DNA from: Allomyces macrogynus ATCC 38327
Taxonomy: Eukaryota > Blastocladiomycota > Blastocladiomycetes > Blastocladiales > Blastocladiaceae
NCBI GenBank assembly: GCA_000151295.1
Contig: GG745359.1
Coordinates: forward strand, 336,505 to 400,504
Direction: 5' to 3'
Length of the DNA: 64,000 bases
Below are positions 36,372 through 63,094 of this stretch, in pieces (within the stretch, counting starts at the first letter, position 1; every line of letters begins with the position of its first letter). The notes below the pieces were generated by a model. The model had not been told where the DNA came from. It saw nothing but the letters and a program-made list of their open reading frames with translations, and did not search any database. The position numbers and the translations under genes are program-made.

Positions 36372-39300
36372 ATGGCCGACGCCAAGTACTTTTCCAAGGG
36401 TACGCTTGATCAGCTTGAAATTGACCATCTCATGACCGAATTCGTTGATATTGTTGTTCACCCGCGCTCTCTTCGTCATAGGCAAGGCGACCGAGCTCGA
36501 TGCCGAGTTTCGGCTCGCCGACAAGGCCGGCAAGGGCGCCAAAAAGAAGGAGATTCTCAAGCGCGTGATTGCCAACATGACCATGGGCACCGACATGAGC
36601 TCGCTGTTTCACCAGGTCATCCAGTGCGCCGCGTTGCCCGGTATCGACGTCAAGAAGATGATCTACCTCTATCTGATCAACTACGCCAAGCAGGTGCCTG
36701 ACCTCTGCACGCTCGCCGTTAATCTGCTGCTCAAGGTACGCTTGTTTCTGCAAGCGCGCGCGCGCGCGCGGCCGCCTCTCCATTTCTCACATTGACGGTG
36801 TGAACGTTGGTCGGGCTTAGGACACGCGCGACCCGAATCCGCTGACGCGCGCGCAGGCGCTGCGGACCATGGGCTACATTACAACACCCGAAATGCTCGA
36901 CAGTATGTGCGACGCTCTGCGTGCCGCGACTAAGGACGACGATCCGTTTGTGCGCAAGACGGCCGTAGTTGGCATCTCCAAGCTGTTCATCAACAGTGCC
37001 GACATGTGCCAGCGCGAAGGGTTCCTCGAGACGCTGTCGGAGATGGTCTACGACGCCAACGGCGCGGTATGTCGTCGCCAAAACACGGAGTAACGGAGCT
37101 GTTCGTTGGTTGATCTCAGATGTGTATTAGGTCATGGCGTCGGCGCTGGCTGTGCTCAAGGAGATTGCGCCGCACGCGCCGTCTGTGACGCTGCAGCTCG
37201 ACCTGACCAAGGCCAGTAAGCTCATTACCGCGCTCGACGAGTGCAGCGAGTACGTGCTATTTACTCCACCTCCGGAACCCTCGATACTTGGACTGACCGC
37301 TCTGTTTCCCGTCCAGGTGGTATCAAGTCTACGTGCTCGATGCTTTGATGCAATTTGTGCCGGCGACGCCCGACGACGCATTGCTCGTCTGCGACCGCAT
37401 CACCAACCGGCTGCAGCACGCCAACTCGGCCGTGAGCATGACGGTGCTCAAGGTGATTCTGCACCTGCTCGACTACGTGCCCAATGACGACGCGGTCGCG
37501 AGCATGTGCAGCAAGCTGACGCCGCCGCTCATCACGCTCATGTCACGCAGTGCCGAGATCCAGTACACGGCGCTGCGCAACATTGTCTTGATCCTCGACA
37601 AGCGGCCACAAGTGCTCGCCGACGAGGTCAAGGCCTTTTTTTGCAAGTACAACGACCCGATCTACGTGAAAATGGCCAAGCTCGAGGTCTTGGTCAGATT
37701 GGTCAACAAGAAAAACTGCCCGCAGGTCTTGCTCGAGCTGAAAGAGTATGCGTCCGAGGCCGACGTCGAGTTTGTGCGTAAGGCCGTCAAGTGCATTGGC
37801 CGGTGCGCGATCCAAATCGAGCCTATGGCCGACGCGTGCATCCGCGTGCTCATGGACCTGATTGAGACGCGCGTGTCATACGTGCTGCAAGAGGCCGTTG
37901 TCGTGCTCAAGGACATTTTCCGCCGGTACCCGAACCGGTACGAGCAGCTGCTCGGCGCGCTGACCGAGCAGCTCGAGGCGATCGACGAGCCCGACGCGAA
38001 AGCCGCCTACATTTGGATTCTCGGACACTATGCGGGCAACATTGCCGGCGCGTGCGACGCGCTACGCATGTTCCTCGCCGACATTTTGCTCGATTCGGCC
38101 AACGTGCAGCTGGCGCTCCTGAACGCGGCCGTCAAGACGCGCATTGCCCAGGCGCCCGGGTCGGACGCGCTGCTCGATGAGATTGTCGCGCACCTGACTG
38201 ACAGTGTCGATAACCCAGACGTGCGCGACCGCGCGATCATGTACGGCCGCATGTTTAAGCAGCACCCGGCTGTAGTTCAGTCCGTGCTCGCCGCCTCGAA
38301 ACCCACCATTTCGCTCGAGTCGGACGGGGTCCCGCCGCACCTCGTACACGAATTGCTCCTAGAACTCGGGTCGCTCGCGTCGATTCTGCACCGGCCCGCG
38401 GCCACGTTCCTCGGTGCGGCTGCCGTCAAGACGGTCGTGCTTGGCCAGGCCGACGGCGACAACAATGCCATGGGCGGCGGGTACGCGGACACGGCCGACC
38501 AGAGTGTCACGCAACAGCAGCAGCAGCAGTCGCCGTCTGCTGGCGGTGCCGGCGGTGCGAGGGCCATGAACTTGCTCGACATGGATGAACCAGCCGCCGT
38601 CGTCCCCTCCCCGACTCAGATGGGCGGGTACCGCCCCGCGTCGCCCGGGACCGTCTCGTCGGCAACCGACAATGTGGCCTCGTCCATGTCGTACCAGCAG
38701 CAGCTGTCGAGTCTGGCCGGTGCGGTCCCGTCGGTCGCGGCTGGGTCCATGTCGCAGTCGTCGAGCATGCGCGCGATTTCGCCGACGCAGGGGATTGCCG
38801 GGATGGGTGGGAGCGCGACGGGGTCGCCGTACCACCGGCCGTCGATGGTGCCAGAGGAACCGAGTGGGGTCCTGGACGGGCCTGCTCTGATGGCGCCGGT
38901 GCAGCCGGCCACGTTTGGGGCTGCACCCGGGTTGGGCCAGATGTTTGGCGGGACGGCGCCGACGGCGTCCACCACTGGCACGAACGGGTTTGGTGGTGCC
39001 GCGAGTGCTATCGGCGGGACAGCGAGCGGGTTTGGTGGTGCCGCGACCGGATTTGGCGGTGCTGCCAGTGGTTTCGGCGGCCCCACGAGCGGATTCGGCG
39101 TGGCCACCAGCAGTTTCGCCGGCCCTGCGAGCGGTTTCGGCACCGGTGGAATCGGCGCCCCCTCCGCGCTCGGCGGTCTCGCCGCCGACCTGGCCGGCAT
39201 GTCGCTCGCGTCGCCCGTGGTTGTGGCCGACACGCTCCTGCTGGCTCGCGAGAACGGCAAGTGTCTCGAGATCCAGGGCGCGATGCGGCGCGACCCCTAC

Positions 39301-40017
39301 GCGCCCGCTGGCACGCACCGGCTGTGCTTGTCTATGAAAATGTCGAACGCCGGGATTGCACCCATGGACGGGCTCATGATCCGACTCAACGTGAACCCGT
39401 TCGGCCTGCAGCTCGATATGACGGCCAAGTTGCCGATCGTGCGTCCCGGGTCGGTGCCCGTGCCCGTGACGGTGCCACTCGTGGCGGGTCCTGTCCCGCC
39501 GTACGCGAGCTGGCCGGAGATTGCCAAGTCCAAGCCGCTCACCGTGCAGGCCGCGATTCGGACGCCGACGGGCACCGAGTTTTTCTTGATTCCAGCGCCC
39601 GTGCAGGAAATGGTGTCGGGCGAAGTGGTCACAGACCCGGAGGCGTACGCGATGCTCCAGGGGTCGTCGGGCCAGGTGCAGGTCAAGACGCTCGCGAGCG
39701 CCAACATGGACCGGATCGTGGCGCGTTTGAAGACGTTACGGGTCACAGTCGCGCCACCGACCAACATGAATGGGGTACGGTCTTGGTTATCATGCGTCGG
39801 TCCGGTGGAGAGTGATCATGGCAGCTGACTGGTTGACTTTTTGTAGACCAAGTGGGTCGTCGTCTCGGGGTGCCTGCTGGGCGGGCAAAAGTTTGCCGTG
39901 CAGCTCGCGGCACCCGAGGCCACGGCGAGCACAACGGGCTCCGTGCAGATCAAGGCCGCGGCAGCGATCCCGAACCTGGACGCCGGTATCATGGAGTTTG
40001 TCGAGTCGCTGGCGTAG
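36372..40017 (+). CDS. AP-1/AP-2 complex subunit beta (beta-adaptin)
   Basis: Exons 36372-36399, 36482-36735, 36821-37066, 37131-37249, 37317-39774, 39847-40017; 1091 aa. Large subunit of clathrin adaptors for TGN or plasma-membrane vesicles. N-terminal HEAT/ARM trunk has the family blocks MIYLYLINYAKQVPD, DPNPLTRAQALRTMG, DPFVRKTAVVGISKL, YTALRNIVLILDKRP, FFCKYNDPIYVKMAKLE and VRKAVKCIGRCAIQIE. The hinge is long and Gly/Phe/Ser-rich with GFGGAASGFG-type repeats (38985-39150). The C-terminal appendage (GLMIRLNVNPFGLQ) lies across the last intron and ends MEFVESLA. Longer than the usual 900-950 aa because of the hinge. AP-1 and AP-2 cannot be separated by eye, and many fungi share one beta-like subunit type. 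Confidence 0.94.
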
Positions 40018-40475
40018 GGTGTTGGATGGATCTGGGACGACTCTGCACGTGCACGTGCGATTGAGCCGCGGGATGGAGGATGACGGGCCGAGGGACTGGG
40101 ACCGAGAGTGACGGGGTCGAGGTGGACGCTAAAACAATGAGGCCTGTTATGATCAACGCGAAGAACCGAGTGGATTGGCATGCGCCAGGCCGGACACAAG
40201 TGACCACGGCATTGCAGAGCCCTGGGCGACCGCACGCCGCCGACGTCGTCGACAGCATCCAGCAGCTCTCGTCAAGTGCGAGGAAAGGTACGGCTTTCAA
40301 AAATGCGTCTCCTCACGATCACGTTCAAGGTCTTCCTTGCCTGGTGGCTGAGTCACAAGCACTTGAACAACGAAAGAGGGGAACTAACCTCAAGGCATAA
40401 TGCGTATAAAGTTGCGGGTCATGCAGCAAATCCGGATCAAACAAGCTTGAAACAGTCCTGACGCTCCTCACTGCC
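40018..40475. other. Intergenic spacer at the left boundary of the CpG-poor block
   Basis: CpG frequency is normal to about 40290 (many CGs at 40220-40290) and falls sharply from about 40440. No gene seen. Confidence 0.5.
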
Positions 40476-42342
40476 ATGGCCATGCTCACAGCTGACGTGC
40501 AACCTGTCAACAAGATGAAGTGCCACCCAATGGGCACACGCCCTGTGCACATTGGCAGCATCGTTGTGGGCAACCCAAACTACCAGCTGGAGCGCCCAAC
40601 ATACCCTTGGTGCATTTGCTTGATTTGAGACCCAACATAGTGGAGACGATTGGCGACCACACACCCAGTGCACTGATACTTTTTGATTCGTCCACAAATA
40701 GGGAGCACCCACAGAAGCCTGGCGTGATTCCCAGCCACCCAAGCCCATACACACCACTGACATCTAGCAAGGAGCCTTGGAAGCCATGCATGCCAATCAA
40801 GGTCAGCAAGCCCTACTGCCTGTGCCATGGCAACAGCAACAGCAACATGACTGTCCCAGGTGGCAACACGAACATGATTATCTTGGGCAGCAACACGAAC
40901 ATGATGGTTCTGGGTGGTAACACAACTGCACCAGGTGGTGTCACAAAGCCACTGCCCAATGACAACAAGCCATGGAACATTATGATCATGCAGTATGTGA
41001 CTTTCTCCTCCCTCCTGCATGCAATTCTCACAAAAGAGTGGTACCAAGCTGACAATTGGCTCGATTCTAGCACCAATGACATTGACATGCACCTTGACCT
41101 GTTCAACTTGGGCAGTGCTGACTGCATGGCCAAGCACATTGCTGACAGCAAGTGTGGCAGAGGTATTGTGTGCATCAATATGGTTGTTGACAAGCTCTGC
41201 GCCATGCACAGCCAGAGCTACTTGCTTGATGGTGGTGACAACATCCAGGTGTGTTGGCAGCCAATTTGTATTTTGTGACATGCAGAACCCTCTCAACCTG
41301 TTTTCCTCACCACATGTGCATTGATATCATAGGGAATGCTCTTCAACACCTACTACAAGGGCAAAATCTTGGCTGACTACATGAATGCCATCAAGTACAA
41401 TGTGACAACAGTCAGCAACCACAAGTGGGATGATGGGGCAGCCAACCTGGTGTGGTTCCAATTGTCTTGGCAAATATGGACGTTTCAGGTGAGCCCATAC
41501 TCAAGGACCTGGTTGCCCCCTACATGGTCTTGACCAAGTATGGCCCAAACTTGGGTGTGATCAGGTTCATGACCTCAGTGCTTAATGGTATTGCACTGCT
41601 CACGTCCAAGATCATGGTTGAGGACCCAGTTTTGGTGGTGCAGTATGCCATTGAAGAGCTGCATAGCAAGGGCATCAAGCACATTATCTGCATCTTGCAC
41701 AACAGGCACCAGGACAACAAGCCTGTCACAGCCAACATGTGCAGCATTTCACTGATTGTTGGTGGTAACTCACACATGCTGCTCAACAAGAACGCGTCCA
41801 TGGCTGATGTGCAGGGCCCCTACCCAATGGACGTCAAGAACTTGGATGGCAAGTTGACCTACATTGTGCAGGCCAAGAAGTTTGGCAAGTGGGTTGGCCT
41901 GATCAACTTTAGCATGATCCTGACAGTCCTGCCATTCCAGAACTTTGTTGTTGACAATGTGGTTGACAGCCAGTACATGAAGGACCTGCTTGAGAACCTT
42001 GCGTCAATGCAAAAGGCCAAGCAGATTAAGGCCCTGATCTTGTTTGGTCATGTCTTGGGCGTGTGTGCTGTGTTTGACTGCAAGCAGCTGGCTGGGTTCA
42101 AGGCGACCAAAGTTATGGTCAATGTCAAGGCTGTGGACGGTACTGTCAAGTTGGAGCCGCTCAACTTGAAGAAGCAGGATGTGTTTGTGACCATTGAATT
42201 TGTTGCTATGGGCAGTGGCAACATTGTGCCAATGCCCTTTACAGCGCCCTTTGGCATGCTGATGTTGGATGAGGTGCTTGACTTCATCAAGACGTTCCTG
42301 GATGGCAAACTACTGGCGTTCAAGGATGCGCGTCTGCAGTAA
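40476..42342 (+). pseudogene. CpG-depleted, decayed 5'-nucleotidase (UshA/CD73 family)
   Basis: Recognisable metallophosphoesterase: LLDGGDNIQ joined over intron 41249-41332 to GMLFNTYYKGKILADYMNAI and VSNHKWDDG, then PIVLANMDVSGEP, KGIKHIICILHNRHQDN, LIVGGNSHMLL, and a late PLNLKKQDVFVTIEF block. Key residues are altered: the usual NHE is NHK, GHSG is HNRH, GGHSH is GGNSH. A frame break at about 41458 separates exon 2 from the ORF at 41452-42342, and the middle NGGGIR/PFGG segment is missing. I count roughly 20 CpG in about 1.8 kb, while neighbouring genes carry several per 60 nt; TpG and CpA are correspondingly abundant and Arg codons almost absent (3 Arg in 296 codons). This suggests deamination of methylated CpG or a RIP-like process. 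The N-terminal start (ATG 40476 or later) is uncertain. Confidence 0.72.
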
Positions 42343-43775
42343 GGACGCCATGTGTGGGTGTGGATCAGGTGGGCGTAGGTTTGCTGAGCGTCAAGTGAGG
42401 ATAGATGAAGCGGCTTGCTGCGAGTCGCGCGTGCGCTTGTTTGCCAGATATATATTTGGAGCGATGTATCAGATATGCTCGCTTGTTTTTCACCCCTTTC
42501 CCAGCTGGCTGTCTGGCTTGTGCAGCCCTCACAGTCCAGTCCCCAATCATCTAGGCTGCTGTATTTACTTGCCCATGCCCAGCTCCCCCACGCCCAGCTC
42601 GACCGAGATTCTGTCGAAGGTCATGGCCGACGCGTTGGGAGCTGCATCCGCCAAAGACGTTGGGCCAGCGTCTTGCTCTGTCGCCTGCTGCAGTGCCTCC
42701 CCGAGTCGCGTCTTGACCGGTTTGACGGCGGCACCACGTGTCTGGGGCGGACTGGGCGGAGGATTGGCCACAAGCGGGTCCCTCGGGATTGTGCGTTGGC
42801 ACCTGCGACGTTTCGCCACGCATTTGCGTTCAGCTTTGCGCCAGAATGAAATCGCAGACTGCAAAAGGCCAGCTTGCATAAGTCGAGTTGGGTGGGAGGG
42901 GCGCAATCCGAGGCTATTTCAGGAATTTCAGGCGTTTTTTGACCCTTTTTATTTTAGGTGTGGCAGTCCCGTTGCTGTCTCCGGTGGGCGGTTTGGCCCT
43001 GGTCGTGCTTTTGAGGAGAGCCGTTGCCAGGGTCAAAGTTAACGACAAGCTTTTATCCGCTTGAACCGCGCTTCTCGCTTGCCAAAAAGCCCGTGGCGTG
43101 GAAACACAGCAGCGACGCCTTGACGCCAGGGCGCGCCATGTCGCCTCCGCCACGGGATTGGCCGCCAACCGCCGCCAAAATCCAACCCACTTCAAACGAC
43201 CCGTCGACGAGAGCGACTAGCAAAAGCACCCAACGCCCGCCGGTGCTGCTCTCGTTGAACGTCCGACAACTCTCTCACGCTCGCCCGTCCCTCGACTACC
43301 TGATTTGCCACTGTGGTGGAGTGCACGGCAACGCCGCGACCACAAACTGCCGCGACCACAAACTGCCTCGACCGACTGCCAACTGAGCAGTGTTCCCGCG
43401 CTGCCGTTTCCGTTGTCGCTGCGAGCCTCCCAAGTTCTCACTGTCTGCACCGGCTCTGCGCGTCCCCACACTCGAGCATCACCGACCACGACCCGCTCTG
43501 GATCAGCAGCTGCAACAGCGCCCTCGACGAGCCGACTGTCTCTATCCGGACTAGCAGCAATTTCGCGGCGCTTGATCCCTCGCGATTGACCGACGTAACG
43601 CAGTGTGCCGTTGGCGTAATCTCAACGAGCCGGTCCTGCTCTGCGTGACTGGCCGTGCCACCTCGACCCGCTCGACAACTGCCGCCGGAAACTCGAGCCC
43701 GCCTTCCATTATTCCCGCGCGACCCGCTGGTCTGCTCGCACCACCTCGTTCCCTCCCTCCATCTCGTTTGCCACC
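42343..43775. other. Intergenic region with a possible small minus-strand gene
   Basis: CpG returns to normal immediately after 42342. T-rich stretch near 42945. A candidate minus ORF at 42565-42879 is listed separately. Pyrimidine-rich leader before the ceramide synthase ATG at 43740-43770. No other gene supported. Confidence 0.45.
42565..42879 (-). CDS. Hypothetical small basic protein
   Basis: ATG ORF of 104 aa on the minus strand: basic N-terminal half (FWRKAERKCVAKRRRCQR), Pro-rich linker, acidic/neutral C-terminus ending VELGVGELGMGK. No family recognised. The plus strand is also open over the same interval with similar codon quality, so the coding strand is not certain. Confidence 0.28.
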   Translation of the reverse strand: MQAGLLQSAISFWRKAERKCVAKRRRCQRTIPRDPLVANPPPSPPQTRGAAVKPVKTRLGEALQQATEQDAGPTSLADAAPNASAMTFDRISVELGVGELGMGK

Positions 43776-45205: not shown

Positions 45206-46097
45206 AGCGGGGCCGGGGAGCGGGGCGAGTAGGTTGGTTGATTCGGTCTCTCGTCGTGCATTGCAGCCGCTGGTCCCTCAACCTATTGTTTTTTTCGGTT
45301 CAGTTTGGTTTTGGTTTTGTCTATTTCTTGGTTCGTGATTGTTTGGGATCTGGTGCAGCACAAAAACGACGTCGGTTTGTGGGCATTCGTGACGAGGCCG
45401 TTTGGTCGCCTGCCATTGTTTCGTGGGTTATCCATTGCAATCGTCGCGTCATATATGACTTCTGTCCCTCTCGCCGACCTTTTCCACCAGTTTTCGGGGC
45501 CTGAACCCGCCGTCGAACGATGGGAAACAGACGAGAGGACTTCATCGAGAGGATTGAGGTGAATGGGCAGGGATATTCGCCACTCACGTGGGTCGTTCCA
45601 AACGCTTCATGAACCACCGCCGACTTGATCATGAAGCGCAGCGACCACAACCCACATTTCATTGCTGCTCTCCCGCACCGACTTACTGCAATGATCTGAC
45701 TTGAAATGACGATCAACGAGCTTCATGATGGACGGCGGAGCCCCGACTACAGGGCAGCGACAACAGCGCCAGAATGAACGAGAACAGCTGCCACAAACAT
45801 CTGTCATAACATCAACCCTTCGTCATGGCCTGCCGCGACTGCTCCGAACGACGGTGCCCGCCCCGTTTGGGCTCTGGACAAAAGCTGCACTGTTCCCCGC
45901 GCGTGCCCGTCCTGTCCGCCCAGACTTGCACCCCGCTCTCTTTCTCTTCCATTCCAACGAGCCAGGCGCACTCGCCTATCCTTTCCCTCTCTCTCGACGA
46001 CTGCTCTCCACCTGTCAGCTCTGGCCGCTGCTCACTACCCGGACCGCACGCCGCTCGCCGATTCGCTCGGACCCCCCACCAACTTGTCGCCAGCCTC
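45206..46097. other. Intergenic, T-rich then promoter-like
   Basis: T-rich trailer at 45280-45340 on the plus strand after the ceramide synthase. The remainder up to the NOX start has open frames without domain content. Confidence 0.5.
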
Positions 46098-47788
46098 ATG
46101 ACCATGGCCGTCCTCAAGCGCACGATTGTGTTTTGGGTGTTTTGGCTCGTGTTCCAAATCGGTCTGTTTTGGGCCGGTTTCTTCAAGCAAAAAATGGACC
46201 CGGGACTCGCGGTACGCTGGTGCCCCCTTTCCAAACTCGAGCCCAAGTCGCAGCGTTCTGACCAATTCTTGACGCTCCTCCAGACGCTGAACCGGCTCCA
46301 ATGGTCGGTGTGGACAAGCCGCGGCGCCGGGCTCAATCTTGCCGTCACCTCGGCTTTGCTCATGGTCCCCATGTGCCGCAACACGATGGGCCTGCTGCGA
46401 CGCACGCCGCTCGGCCGCATCCTCCCGTTCGATGAGGGCATCTTTTTCCACAAGGTGTGCGCGTACACGGTCCTGTTCTTCACGGTCGTGCACACGACGG
46501 CGCACTACGTCAACTTCTTCAACGTGCAGCTCAAGCTGCCGGCGCTCAAGCTCAAGGCGTGGCAAATTCACTATACGACGTGGGGTGGGGCCACGGGTCA
46601 CGTCATGGCCGTCGCCATGTTTTTCATGTACACGGCCGCGGCGATGCGCATGCGGCAACAGAGCTTTGAGGCGTTTTGGTTCACGCACCATCTCGCAATT
46701 GTGTTTTACATTGGGTTCTTTTTCCATGGCTACGGGTGCTTTGGTACGCACGGCAACGACGCTCTCTACCGGATTCTGACCGCTCGATTGTTCGACTTTC
46801 GTCGTGCTGACCCTTCCACGGATATGATCATTTCGTAGTCAAGACGGCCGACGGCCACTGCCGCCCCTACTACTCGTGGTCCTACGCGCTGTTCGTGTGC
46901 ACGATCTACGTCTTTGAGCGTCTCCTGCGCGTCTACCGCGGCCGGCAACCCACGTCCATCGAGCGCGTCATCATGCACCCGGGCAACGCCATGGAAATAC
47001 AGTTCAACAAGCCGTCCATGACCTATGCGCCCGGCCAATGGGTCTTCATCAACTTACCTGAAGTCGCGCCGCTGCAATGGCACCCGTTCACGCTCACCTC
47101 GTGCCCGGAGGAACGGTACGCGTCGGTGCACATCCGGCTCGTCGGCGACTGGACCAAGAACGCCGCGCGCGTCCTCGGGTGCATGGACGAGAAGTCGACG
47201 CGCGACCCGCGGTCTGTGAAGTTGCGCGTCGACGGGCCGTACGCGGCCCCGGCTGACCGCGCGTTCGATTACGATAACGTGATTTGTGTGGCCGCCGGGA
47301 TTGGTGTGACACCGTTCGCGTCGGTCCTGAAATCGCTCGGGTTCCGCGCGAAAACCGACCCAGACCTGGTGCTGCGCAAGGTCGATTTCTTTTGGGTGAA
47401 CCGTGACAAGCAGGCGTTCGAGTGGTTCCAGGCGGAATTGCGCAGTCTCGAATCGATGCTGCCATCGCAGTTGCTCCAGTACCATCTGTATTTGACGGAG
47501 AAGCTCGGGCTCGATGCGATTCACAATTATTGCTTGAATGCCGCGGGCGCCGACTTTGATCCGATCACGCAACTCAGGGCGCAGTTGCAGTTTGGCCGGC
47601 CGGATTGGGAGCACGAACTGGCCAAGGTTCGCGATCGGGTGTTGGCTGCGAACGTGGGGGTGAAGCGCAAGTTGCGGATCGCGTGTTTCTTTTGTGGGCC
47701 GGCGCCGGTCGCGAGGGCGTTGCGCGACGCGTGCATTGTGCTTTCGAATGGCCAGGTCGACCTGGATTTCTTCAAGGAGCATTTTTGA
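46098..47788 (+). CDS. NOX: NADPH oxidase (NOX family, gp91phox-like)
   Basis: Exons 46098-46211, 46284-46743, 46839-47788; 507 aa. Membrane flavocytochrome that makes superoxide; in fungi it drives differentiation and polarity. Six-helix ferric reductase core with the haem pairs at His 94 and 108 (FFHKVCAYTVLFFTVVHTT) and His 173 and 186 (FWFTHHLAIVFYIGFFFHG). FAD-binding block HPFTLTSCPEE, NADPH-binding blocks VAAGIGVTPFASVL and FFCGPAPVARAL, and the canonical C-terminal FF.E.F ending (DFFKEHF). No EF hands, so NOX1/2-type rather than NOX5. The first intron (72 nt) is in frame and stop-free; it is called because of the GTACGC donor and because the family lacks the intervening residues. Confidence 0.95.
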
Positions 47789-48373
47789 GAGCCGAGTCGC
47801 GATGTTGCATTTTTGGTTGCTGTGTCTTGTCTTATAAATCGTCGTTTTGCACATGCAAGCTGCCGAGGTCGATTGGAAAGATGTCATTGCTTCGAAGGCC
47901 CGATAAATATTATGCTCCTCCTTCTCAACCAGTTTTATGGGCCGTTCACTCATTTTTTGGTGCTTTGGTAATGAAGGTCGTGGTGCAAAGCGGCAAAGGA
48001 GCCGCGAGATGTTGAAGTGTTCATGATCACTTTTATTCATGATCACTTTCATTCATGATCACTGCGCAATCAGTCCACCAACCCATTTCTCCTCTCGCAA
48101 CAACCATGAACCCCCCAAACTACTCGCAATGAACAGCGCGCAGGTCATGTCGAGGGCGACCTGCATCGTTCAAAGTGAAGCCAGCCAGACCAGCATATTT
48201 ACTCGTTGACACGGTTGCGAATCCGGCGCGCGCGCGCGCGCGTCCGACAGCCGTGACGTGACGAACCCTGCAGCGGTGGGCAAGTCGCGTCGTCGCACGG
48301 CCGATTGCCCATGTCCCTCTTCACCGACCAGCAGGAATCGATTGTCGAGACGCTGACCGATTTGACGACGACG
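47789..48373. other. Intergenic region with a triplicated 14-16 nt motif
   Basis: Includes three near-tandem copies of TTCATGATCACT at 48020-48063 and a GC dinucleotide run (48229-48242). ATG 48311 opens the frame of the next gene but ATG 48374 gives the better signal peptide. Confidence 0.5.
48020..48063. repeat. Triplicate TTCATGATCACT motif
   Basis: Three copies spaced by about 15 nt, each containing the palindrome TGATCA. Located 310-350 nt upstream of the SH3 membrane protein ATG. Could be a regulatory cluster or replication slippage. Confidence 0.8.
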
Positions 48374-59959: not shown

Positions 59960-60334
59960 AAAAATATTATGGCGGAATTGGTCCTTCGATGCTTTGTCTT
60001 GGACCGACAGCCCCATTCGCCACCATTCGCTACCAATCTCCCTCAATAATGAACAAGCTGAAGAGGGGGCAAACTAGTCTTCGTGTCATGATAACGCGGA
60101 AATTTACGGGCACGCGGTTGCTCGGTCGTTGCATCTGTTGACAGCCAAGCCAAGGATACAAATGGAACAGTCTCCATCAACACAATTTCGAATGCAAAGA
60201 CATGCACACCGTCAAAGTCGCGCGACCTCACTTCATAGTGCTAATGAATCCCTGATAGTTTCGACTTGGCATGGAACGCAATTGGATCCATTCCCAACAA
60301 CAGCGAGTAAATAATGCGCCCTTTGCAATTACAT
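59960..60334. other. Spacer, gene-poor
   Basis: Lower GC than the genes to the left. Start of a 3-kb gene-poor block; no feature seen. Confidence 0.45.
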
Positions 60335-61273
60335 TCAAGGGAAAGCGTGATTCACTTCTGTGATGAGGTGACCACGGTGGTGCAAGCAGGTTTCCCACAG
60401 CGCAAGCAAACGGTTCACAAAGGTTAGTTCCCACAGCGACGTGCCCAACGGCGATTGCTTCTGTCCTCTCAGTCGTGCTTTGAACCAACGCCGTTCAACA
60501 CAACCAAACCGCTCCTTGTCATCCATTACTTGGACAGGTCGCACCATATCCGAACTGGATGCTCAACCAAGTCAGGGTCGGTGGCACAGTCTGGATCACT
60601 TTCGCGCCGCACTCGTCTGAGTACCCCATCAGTGACAGATGCGTGAGCTGGGCAGGGGGCGGGATGGCAAGGATTGATGACAATGCGTGATATAACATCT
60701 GGATGGTCCAAGGACGCAGTGCCCGAGGCCAATAATCGATGGACAACTCTGGCTCAGTTCCAAAGTTACCCTCCTTGATGAGCAGATGGACACAGGACGG
60801 CGGTAACGGTTCACTCAAACGATTCAAGGGCAAGGTATAGTGCCTACATGTCCGTGGAATGGGCAGCAGCGTCCAATGCCAGTCAACTTGGACGGGCTTG
60901 TAACTGGCGCCCAAGGAGAATAGATACGGCGCAGTTCGTCGCGATGTAATAGGACGAGGTAATGTCGCATTGGTCCATCAGAATTGGAACAAAAGTCGTT
61001 GGCAACATGACCGATGTCGCTGTGGTGCACCAAGGCCGTCGCTGCGTTTCCCGTGGAAGCTTGCGACAAAGACGGCCGAGAATGAGCGCCAAAATGAATA
61101 TTTCGTAGCAGGGCGCAAATGGCAGGAGCATAGAGGGCTGGCGCGGCCAGGGCCAAGTTCACCAAATCGAGACGGGATTCTGGACGATGATATTCAATGT
61201 TGGTAGCAATTGCGTGCACGAGAAGGTGGACCACATCAGTCTGCAGGGCAAGTAACGGGCATGGGGTAGGCAT
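60335..61273 (-). pseudogene. Remnant of an F-box-like, possibly LRR, protein with frameshifts
   Basis: From ATG 61273 (MPTPCPLLAL) the first frame encodes an F-box-like helix pair (LLALQTDVVHLLVHAIATN, LDLVNLALAAPALYAPAI). At about 60925 the meaningful frame shifts (DELRR to LFSLGASYKPVQVDWHW) and continues through LRR-like text (LTHLSLMGYSDECG, PPTLTWLSIQFGYG) to a stop near 60525. More protein-like sequence (ERFGCVERRWFKARL) follows in another frame to 60335. At least two frame changes without splice signals point to a pseudogene. F-box/LRR assignment is tentative. Confidence 0.4.
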
Positions 61274-63094
61274 TGTATCGACGCTGGTCACGGCAGAGCA
61301 GAGACTGGTATGATATTGTTTGGCTACTGAGTATTCAGTCGAGATGATGCTTGCAGCGTGGGGAGAATGGATGGGGCATAATGGCGGCAAATCGCGGTAG
61401 CGGCTTTCGAGCGTGGCCGCTGTTGCTTGGCTCGAAGTGACACGGTTGGGCGGTGGATTTGGTCGTCACATGTCTGATGGCATCTTGCAACACGTTGCGG
61501 CCAAATTCCCTGGTTCCCTTCACCATTTCTACACAACTGGAAGCTGTCGGAAGCACCTCGGCCAGGCAGACCATGAAAGGGCGGTGCTGAAGTTGTTATC
61601 GCTGATGCCACGGGTGGTCAGGGTTCTGGTCATCATAAACACGCCTCTCAGTTGCTTGGTTGATGTGGAAGAAAACGCACGCGACCGAAAAAGAAGTGGT
61701 CGTGTCTCGCTGGCAAAAAGGGAGAGATGTGGTTTTGAGCGGCCATCATGAGCCGGCATTGCGCGTTGTGGGCAATCACAAATGGCCTCTTTGACGTGAA
61801 TGTAGCCTGACGAGCGAACGCTTCCAAACGATTGAAAGATGGTTGCAATGACGATAAATTGCATCTTGAGAACCCTCCACCCGGACGTGCTCTTCTCGCG
61901 CTCCAATATAAGCGGCCAGTTTGTATTTAAGTCCGCATGTGCATGCGCCAGAATGAATTTCCCTAAGCAACGATAGCTGGGCATTCGACCCTTGACAAGG
62001 TGTTCAAATGGTTTGTGGTAAACGAAATAGTGGCTACGATGCTCGACGACACCGCCCTCAAAAAATGTGCGATGGTTTGCTCAGCAACGGGATGAGACGT
62101 GAACAGACAGAGCTGTTGCTCAAGGGTCGGGAAGGAAGAGGGCAAAAACGAGAATTTCAAGAGCAGAGACGAATGGATGCGCGGCGAACGGACGGCGAGT
62201 CATGACAAGATGAAGCGACAACAATGGCCAACCAAGTATCGACCTGCTTTCAAGCAGCATGGCAAATCACCGCCCAATTTTCAGTTACTCGTCGCCCCTA
62301 TTGATTCCCCCCTCCCCCTCGCCCGCGTGAGTATGGTCCTCTCCCATGTCGTGATCCTCATCGCCATTTTCTTCGTCGGAACTGTCCCAGCCAATAAGGT
62401 CGGTTCGGGTTTTGGAGCGCAAGATGCACAAGAACAAGCCGCCATGCATCGAGCCCATAAATATCCGCGACTCGTATTATTTCCGGCGCTGATGGACGTG
62501 CATCGTTCATAACCAGTCGTGTTGCGCCGCTGGTGAGAATGATGGTTTTGGGAGCGCCTTTGGGCGCTTGTGTTGTTCAAGCGCTCATGCTTGACAGACA
62601 CAAGTGTCAGAACGCTTTAGTATTCTCCCTTGGATCGACCAGCAAAAGAGCAAAAAAACGCGGGCATGTTTGATTGATGCTCACAGACACGGAAAACAGT
62701 CGCAAATGCACGGTGCCAACCTCAAAAAGCCACGAATGGACGGCGACAAGCGTCAGGCGAGTGCCGACCGCAAAGGACAGGCGAAAGAGCATGAACTTTT
62801 TCTATTGCTGTCGTCCAACAAAGCGGGGTCTCCACAGAATAAAATACCAGCCTGCGTCTGCCAACAATCTATTTTCAATCGATAAAAATATGGTGTTACG
62901 AGTCACCGTCACCGTGGCTCTTTTGGTTGGAGGTCCATGGACCCTCCCGTCCCATCCAGCCCTCAGCGCCGGCACGGTCCGGTCCAGACGTTTCTTGCAA
63001 CCGCTCGCTCTACCACCGCAGGTCCCGCCCGCGGACGATCGCAAGCACATGTCGTCCATCCATTCATCCACCCGAATCGACCCACACGAGTCGC
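61274..63094. other. Gene-poor region with scattered short open frames
   Basis: Moderate GC and CpG. Several minus frames (61529-61984, 61963-62160) resemble further decayed F-box-type text but have no clear domain. A 57-codon minus ORF at 62285-62458 has a strongly acidic end (WDSSDEENGDEDHD) and could be the last exon of a lost gene. Nothing here is secure. Confidence 0.35.

Follow-up and report, generated by a model that had tools for sequence, protein, structure and literature searches.

A dead duplicate of a 5'-nucleotidase gene in Allomyces has lost most of its CpG sites, in a pattern consistent with cytosine methylation and deamination

Overview

The window analyzed here is a 64-kb stretch of the Allomyces genome (C44:336505-400504; the genome comprises 54 Mb in 75 contigs), and our interest lies in a gene-sized segment at 40457-42342 from which CpG dinucleotides have largely disappeared. 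This CpG desert is what remains of a 5'-nucleotidase gene that was duplicated and died in one copy, and in our judgement its CpG sites were probably lost through symmetric CpG methylation followed by deamination. An intact, CpG-rich syntenic partner is present on contig C52, and relative to that partner the window copy has undergone CpG-specific, symmetric transition across exons and introns alike. Promoter-side DNA, the start codon, the reading frame and residues of the active site have also been lost from the window copy. The mutational signature recurs in one other dying duplicate and in one or more old retroelement copies. We infer the methylation and deamination steps themselves from the sequence context and symmetry of the changes and from the machinery predicted in the genome.

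The CpG desert and its edges

The desert contains 28 CpG over 1886 bp (14.8 per kb), corresponding to an observed/expected ratio (O/E) of 0.236. In 581 windows of the same length across the rest of the 64 kb, CpG O/E ranges from 0.94 to 1.43 (mean 1.26, standard deviation 0.084), which places the desert at z -12.2. These values confirm the original prediction of a CpG desert at a decayed 5'-nucleotidase, although the density it gave, about 11 CpG per kb, differs from the measured one. In the core of the desert (41001-42000) 7 CpG per kb remain, and TpG and CpA have replaced them as proposed (O/E 1.90 and 1.87, respectively). The suspected loss of arginine codons was likewise observed: 3 of the 14 aligned arginine codons of the paralogue still encode arginine, while 5 have become cysteine, 2 histidine, 1 glutamine and 3 other residues. 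Within the 64-kb window no second stretch comes near this depletion, and to that extent the locus is single as claimed; the genome, however, holds further depleted loci.

The edges of the desert were scored over alignable stretches, parts of both intergenic stretches being unalignable. CpG sites of the partner are retained at 117 of 144 positions in the upstream flank (39000-40110), at 10 of 15 just upstream of the gene (40219-40453) and at 12 of 16 downstream of it (42703-42855); the downstream alignment as a whole retains 106 of 147, across poorly aligned stretches. The proposed coincidence of the edges with the gene ends therefore holds insofar as CpG is mostly kept in alignable DNA outside the gene. 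The edges are nevertheless soft: the outer 200-bp bins retain 18 of 88 CpG and the central ones 6 of 131 (Fisher p 3e-4, for a grouping of bins chosen after the profile was seen). The start of the desert coincides with a deletion of about 390 bp that took the promoter and the start codon.

An intact syntenic partner and the lesions of the window copy

A genome-wide DNA search, in which the best candidates were scored, recovered a single relative other than the desert itself, in two pieces on C52. A protein search of the genome, likewise scoring best candidates, added just two very distant matches, both on C68 (27% and 32% identity). The C52 gene (locus L004, 3831-6047) consists of four exons separated by GT-AG introns and encodes a 656-aa product that retains the motifs NDIH, GGDNFQG, GNHE and GGHSH, and its CpG O/E is normal. 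The window and C52 are collinear on either side of the gene (identity is 88.5% across the 3 kb upstream of it and 80% across the 2.5 kb downstream), which indicates that the two loci are copies of one duplicated segment. Within the gene, DNA identity is 77-82% and the differences are concentrated at CpG. The intact, syntenic and CpG-normal nucleotidase paralogue that the original prediction called for is thus present. The 438-aa last exon of the paralogue is 95% identical to Allomyces javanicus GGF32_009993, and protein identity to A. javanicus and A. macrogynus agrees with the zoosporic-fungus setting that had been assumed. This exon exceeds the Pfam cut-offs for 5_nucleotid_C (104.5 bits) and Metallophos (29.7 bits), while the desert copy yields a 5_nucleotid_C match (E 5.9e-4, 20.4 bits) under the 23.6-bit cut-off. 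No relative of the dead 296-aa frame was found at E <= 0.001 among 900 database candidates, under a length filter whose upper bound of 518 aa leaves out longer relatives, the A. javanicus protein of 656 aa among them. The features of the window copy, all on the forward strand, are as follows.

40457..42342, + strand: dead, CpG-depleted 5'-nucleotidase copy, the desert (CpG O/E, alignment to the C52 paralogue, Pfam)
40453..40457, + strand: junction of the ~390-bp deletion, with loss of a TATA-like GATATAAAAG, the start codon and the first codons (junction blastn, gene alignment)
40610..40701, + strand: intron 1, GT-AG retained (placed by alignment to the paralogue intron, sequence read)
40836..40923, + strand: 27-bp tandem repeat encoding an Asn/Thr/Gly-rich linker, with a 15-bp insertion aligned beside the repeat
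40993..41070, + strand: intron 2, GT-AG retained (alignment to the paralogue, sequence read)
41249..41332, + strand: intron 3, GT-AG retained, all 5 aligned paralogue CpG gone (3 TG, 2 CA; alignment, sequence read)
41457..41458, + strand: frameshifting 19-bp deletion (gene alignment)
41894..41895, + strand: 321-bp deletion, in frame (gene alignment)

The deleted ~390 bp match about 3453-3843 of L004. Because A. javanicus P0001 shares the MKIQ N-terminus of the paralogue, it is the window copy that lost its start codon, and the remainder of the 390 bp would have been removed in the same event. The two copies differ in amino acid at 157 of 541 aligned codons. When these differences were polarized with A. 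javanicus, its residue matched that of the partner in 142 cases and that of the window copy in 9; in the other 6 it matched neither. Forty-three changes fall at positions where all five of the intact proteins in the comparison have the same residue. H153D in the NDIH motif and H359N in the GHSH motif replace histidines which we take to be metal ligands. Judged by its sequence, the window copy lacks the start codon, the open frame and the metal ligands expected of a functional 5'-nucleotidase.

Mutation spectrum in the dead gene

Among 219 aligned partner CpG, 24 are kept in the window copy, 91 have become TG, 73 CA, 4 TA and 27 something else; another 49 fall in alignment gaps. The original suggestion that CpG turned repeatedly into TpG or CpA in one of two duplicates is thereby borne out. 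Retention differs sharply between the gene (24/219) and the upstream flank (117/144; Fisher p 1.5e-43). The changes depend on context, with partner C replaced by T at 178 of 437 cytosines in CpG as compared to 29 of 259 in CpA, 12 of 253 in CpC and 13 of 174 in CpT. Retention by codon phase (3/14, 10/83 and 7/98) and in introns (4/24) reveals no visible protein constraint on CpG. Non-CpG divergence of the gene (12.1%) lies between that of its two flanks (8.1% and 15.9%), indicating that the locus is not simply old.

The TG and CA outcomes are balanced (91 vs 73, p 0.18), and a runs test found their order chance-like in the desert, in the retroelement copy L053 and in a reductase copy on C52 (both described below). 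Balance and chance-like order together suggest independent events, and as a test for strand tracts left by a processive mutator, the runs test detected no clustering in these three loci. CGA codons are absent from the 508 partner codons examined, so that CpG transition could not have created stops there; the lack of in-frame stops is consequently weak evidence of past constraint.

Other CpG-depleted loci and CpG-rich repeats

The same duplicated block contains the reverse case, a ferric-reductase-type pair in which the C52 copy is decayed and the window copy CpG-normal.

45825..47885, + strand: CpG-normal ferric-reductase/NADPH-oxidase-type gene (Pfam; pairing with the CpG-decayed C52 partner)

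The window reductase exceeds the Pfam cut-offs with matches to Ferric_reduct (49.4 bits, 45825-46835) as well as FAD_binding_8 (81.6 bits) and NAD_binding_6 (79 bits; 46895-47785). Of the window CpG, 71 are kept in the C52 copy (L030, 1431-2637), 33 have become TG and 30 CA; the total, at least 142, is a lower bound as it was tallied from the six commonest outcomes. Loss is heaviest over the first ~600 aligned bp (19/69 kept, versus 43/57 at 47300-47799), and with such uneven loss the edges there do not match the gene. The decayed copy, at C52:967149-968637 (L030, 1150-2637; window partner about 45583-47885), contains in-frame stops.

A retroelement copy, L053, shares 88.6-90.4% identity with L046-L052, and most of the differences are CpG transitions. 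Compared with L049 and L047, it keeps 56 of 282 CpG, with 221 now TG or CA, 2 TA and 3 other. Replacement of C by T affects 230 of 571 cytosines in CpG and 18 of 1195 elsewhere, and 12 of 1380 A/T sites have changed. The resulting ratio of per-cytosine rates between CpG and non-CpG sites is 54 (34-91), against 19 (9-46) in the related copy L046, a contrast that suggests unequal targeting, albeit from few events. L053 is the sole desert among 30 fetched loci with RVT_1 matches (55 matches in all). Across these loci CpG loss runs by degree, from 20% in L046 through about 50% in the C52 reductase copy and 80% in L053 to 89% in the desert gene.

Young repeats have kept their CpG. Over the part that could be read, thirteen retroelement copies (L032-L045 with L041 set aside) share 99.37-99.97% identity with L041, and CpG O/E is 1.43-1.46 in every one of the 14. 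Similarly, L057-L059 are 99.2-99.3% identical to L056, and all four have an O/E of 1.19-1.20.

Sampling of the genome covered 70 stretches, of which 57 were readable and 13 wholly or mostly N (L064 and L065 included). Three of the 57 had a CpG O/E below 0.6 (5%, 95% range 1-15%): one 3-kb sample (L066) and two 250-bp samples (L128 and L129), with none among the 1-kb and 300-bp samples. The ten 3-kb places were hand-picked round numbers, and the other samples were drawn at random from sets of 11 or 26 contigs. L066, an arbitrary sample, has an O/E of 0.05 over 2.1 kb, and an O/E of 0.10-0.27 was obtained for five loci, in three places, with which it has a short repeat in common. These six were judged by O/E alone, without a CpG-normal reference, and represent a subset of the short-repeat matches. 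The multi-kb CpG-poor stretches sharing this repeat are as follows.

C69:700001-702140: L066
C60:61913-65299: L092
C61:606789-611306: L093 and L094
C56:773903-778523: L095 and L096

The two random 250-bp samples, L128 (C72:160766-161015) and L129 (C53:894131-894380), have an O/E of 0.33 and 0.36, and L077 on C65 is partly CpG-low (O/E 0.75). In the window itself, 60001-62000 is mildly CpG-low (O/E 0.92-0.98, GC 0.52-0.54), which may reflect an early stage or a compositional dip.

Candidate methyltransferases and readers

A profile search of the genome with PF00145 produced 16 matches, and the proposed search for methyltransferases thus yielded candidate DNMT1-like genes, on C65 and C53. GPPCQGFSG and ENV motifs were read by eye in both. 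The C53 copy has DNMT1 as its best PDB match (E 2e-53), and its catalytic part is 94% (A. javanicus) and 93% (A. macrogynus) identical to proteins named DNA (cytosine-5)-methyltransferase. A third C5-methyltransferase candidate lies at C9:44266-45262 (L016), and weaker PF00145 matches were seen on C19, C23, C25, C30, C63 and C70; these are the candidates to consider for a methyltransferase of the RID/Masc1 class associated with repeat-induced point mutation. The SRA domain of UHRF1 reads hemimethylated CpG; an SRA domain was detected on C74 (E 2.3e-19), and C62 gave another match of lower strength. The 14 control genomes gave no match, as expected if SRA is absent there. DNMT1-RFD gave no match here or in the controls and is hence uninformative. 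The single match to the UDG/TDG family (PF03167), on C42, is not decisive.

Explanation of the desert

Transitions concentrated at CpG in the desert and in L053, an old repeat copy carrying the signature (again L053), and a predicted DNMT1-class gene in the genome (C65 and C53) all point to loss through methylation. The first two steps are visible as states, namely a gene duplication and the loss of the promoter from one copy, the order of the latter relative to CpG loss being undated. The promoter-less copy would then have been packaged in the manner of a transposon, with symmetric methylation of its CpG sites. A DNMT1-type enzyme, aided by a partner that carries an SRA domain, may have maintained this state, and gradual deamination would have turned 5-methylcytosine (5mC) into thymine. 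Genes in use and elements of recent origin would remain CpG-rich as they are either unmethylated or were methylated too recently.

Several observations weigh against this explanation. The desert shows a mild excess of C to T replacement in CpA (29/259, vs 22/434 in the reverse direction), and TG/CA use is uneven across the 200-bp bins of the desert (P 0.008), a weak effect confined to the nucleotidase. The C65 methyltransferase match runs across two stop codons, which probably lie in an intron. Passive deamination in animals produces a CpG excess of roughly 10-15-fold, and the L053 ratio of 54 (34-91) exceeds it. Intergenic DNA beside the dead gene is uneroded where alignable, indicating that absent transcription alone is not the trigger, and the favored model gives no explanation of why erosion halts at the gene ends. 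A single host gene body as target is unusual, as is a CpG rate that is high for passive decay. Finally, a recent review, in its treatment of early-diverging fungi, describes 5mC there as near-undetectable (PMC13297926).

A CpG-directed mutator resembling repeat-induced point mutation (RIP), acting in a burst over few sexual generations on this copy and some repeats, would account for boundaries that fit the gene, for the involvement of one member of a duplicated pair, and for L053, where TG or CA now stands at 78% of the CpG sites, other positions have changed by about 1%, and the rate ratio exceeds that of its sister L046. We consider it unlikely, as the partner copy and the 89%-identical flank were spared, the 14 near-identical retroelements are untouched, strand-clustered runs are lacking, and every degree of loss from 20% to 89% is present, as in gradual decay. 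We give an equally small chance to the broader idea that Allomyces possesses an active CpG-directed hypermutation or silencing process, distinct from RIP and far faster than passive deamination, that picked out one duplicate from the point of promoter loss and converted almost all of its CpG to TpG/CpA; it would serve zoosporic fungi both as genome defence and as a means of pruning duplicates. The original prediction had named a RIP-like process; RIP in the strict sense is not supported: C:G to T:A transitions in repeated DNA are indeed seen, but in CpG context and in an old duplicate (~89%) with its upstream flank spared, and neither the partner nor the near-identical multicopy retroelements are affected.

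Still less probable is that gene-body methylation eroded CpG while the gene was working and expressed, before it died. Such a history would fit the position of the edges at the two ends of the gene, close to which CpG is best preserved, and also the lack of in-frame stops in 541 aligned codons (chance 0.01-0.10, depending on the share of non-CpG changes given to this copy, over 508 codons with the repeat region excluded) and the excess of synonymous non-CpG changes (49 vs 27.1 expected, the partner's own changes being mixed in). The lack of stops, however, carries little weight given the missing CGA codons, CpG loss was blind to codon phase, the partner gene is CpG-normal, the start codon and promoter-side DNA are gone, and a retroelement copy bears the same signature. 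The same review, where it deals with gene bodies, describes such methylation as largely lost in fungi (PMC13297926).

Horizontal transfer or introgression from a CpG-poor organism, or codon-usage selection, would explain a composition sharply unlike that of the neighbors, yet we regard it as having next to no chance, since the gene is syntenic with a CpG-rich partner at 77-82% DNA identity with differences centered on CpG, introns were hit but kept in place, the protein is derived relative to A. javanicus, and DNA and protein searches found among their best candidates in this genome no CpG-poor relative closer than the C52 partner. Horizontal gene acquisition as such is rejected on the synteny and alignability of the desert copy with that partner.

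Significance and comparison with known systems

The desert is a real and well-bounded feature, and under methylation and deamination it would extend a known kind of process to another taxon, the target being an unusual one. Two syntenic copies, one of them CpG-eroded, constitute a natural experiment on why a fungal genome treats a host gene copy as a transposon, and Allomyces is culturable in its sexual as well as its asexual phase. The results suggest that silencing by CpG methylation leaves a strong genomic imprint in Blastocladiomycota, where 5mC has been described as minor, and such silencing may help to erase duplicates after genome duplication. According to PMC7862722, an earlier survey covered the DNA methyltransferases (DNMTs) of Blastocladiomycota. 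Among the open-licence papers listed, no title addressed CpG decay in Blastocladiomycota, homeologue silencing by CpG decay or, for Allomyces and DNA methylation, decay of this kind; the main text of a study of RIP across fungi (PMC12543289) contains neither the word Allomyces nor CpG.

Neurospora-type RIP also converts C:G to T:A in a member of a duplicated pair (background in PMC4352252). The Allomyces changes differ from it in their CpG rather than CpA context and in the sparing of the partner, of near-identical repeats and of the equally duplicated flank. Methylation induced premeiotically (MIP) spans the full duplication and affects both copies, whereas the duplicated flank and the partner in Allomyces retain CpG. 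What Allomyces may have in common with MIP in Ascobolus, as outlined for Masc1 (PMC4352252), is methylation of duplicated DNA as a suggested trigger. Spizellomyces is likewise a zoosporic fungus with a DNMT, and there, as in other early-branching fungi, 5mC is described as confined to transposons in the pertinent passages of PMC12695648. Allomyces differs in its sequence imprint, which is strong but local. A further likeness is to Basidiomycota, for which CpG-only C-to-T decay of transposons has been tied to a Masc2-like DNMT1, with methylcytosine deamination inferred, in the portion of Amselem et al. 2015 that concerns this phylum (PMC4352252). Both show C to T changes confined to CpG, old repeat copies that carry them and a DNMT1-class gene in the genome, the Allomyces enzyme being placed at the level of the DNMT1 class and not in a subclass (Masc2, Dim-2 or other). 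Blastocladiomycota, unlike Basidiomycota, lie outside Dikarya, and in Allomyces host gene copies in a duplicated block were also hit, in one case with edges at a gene.
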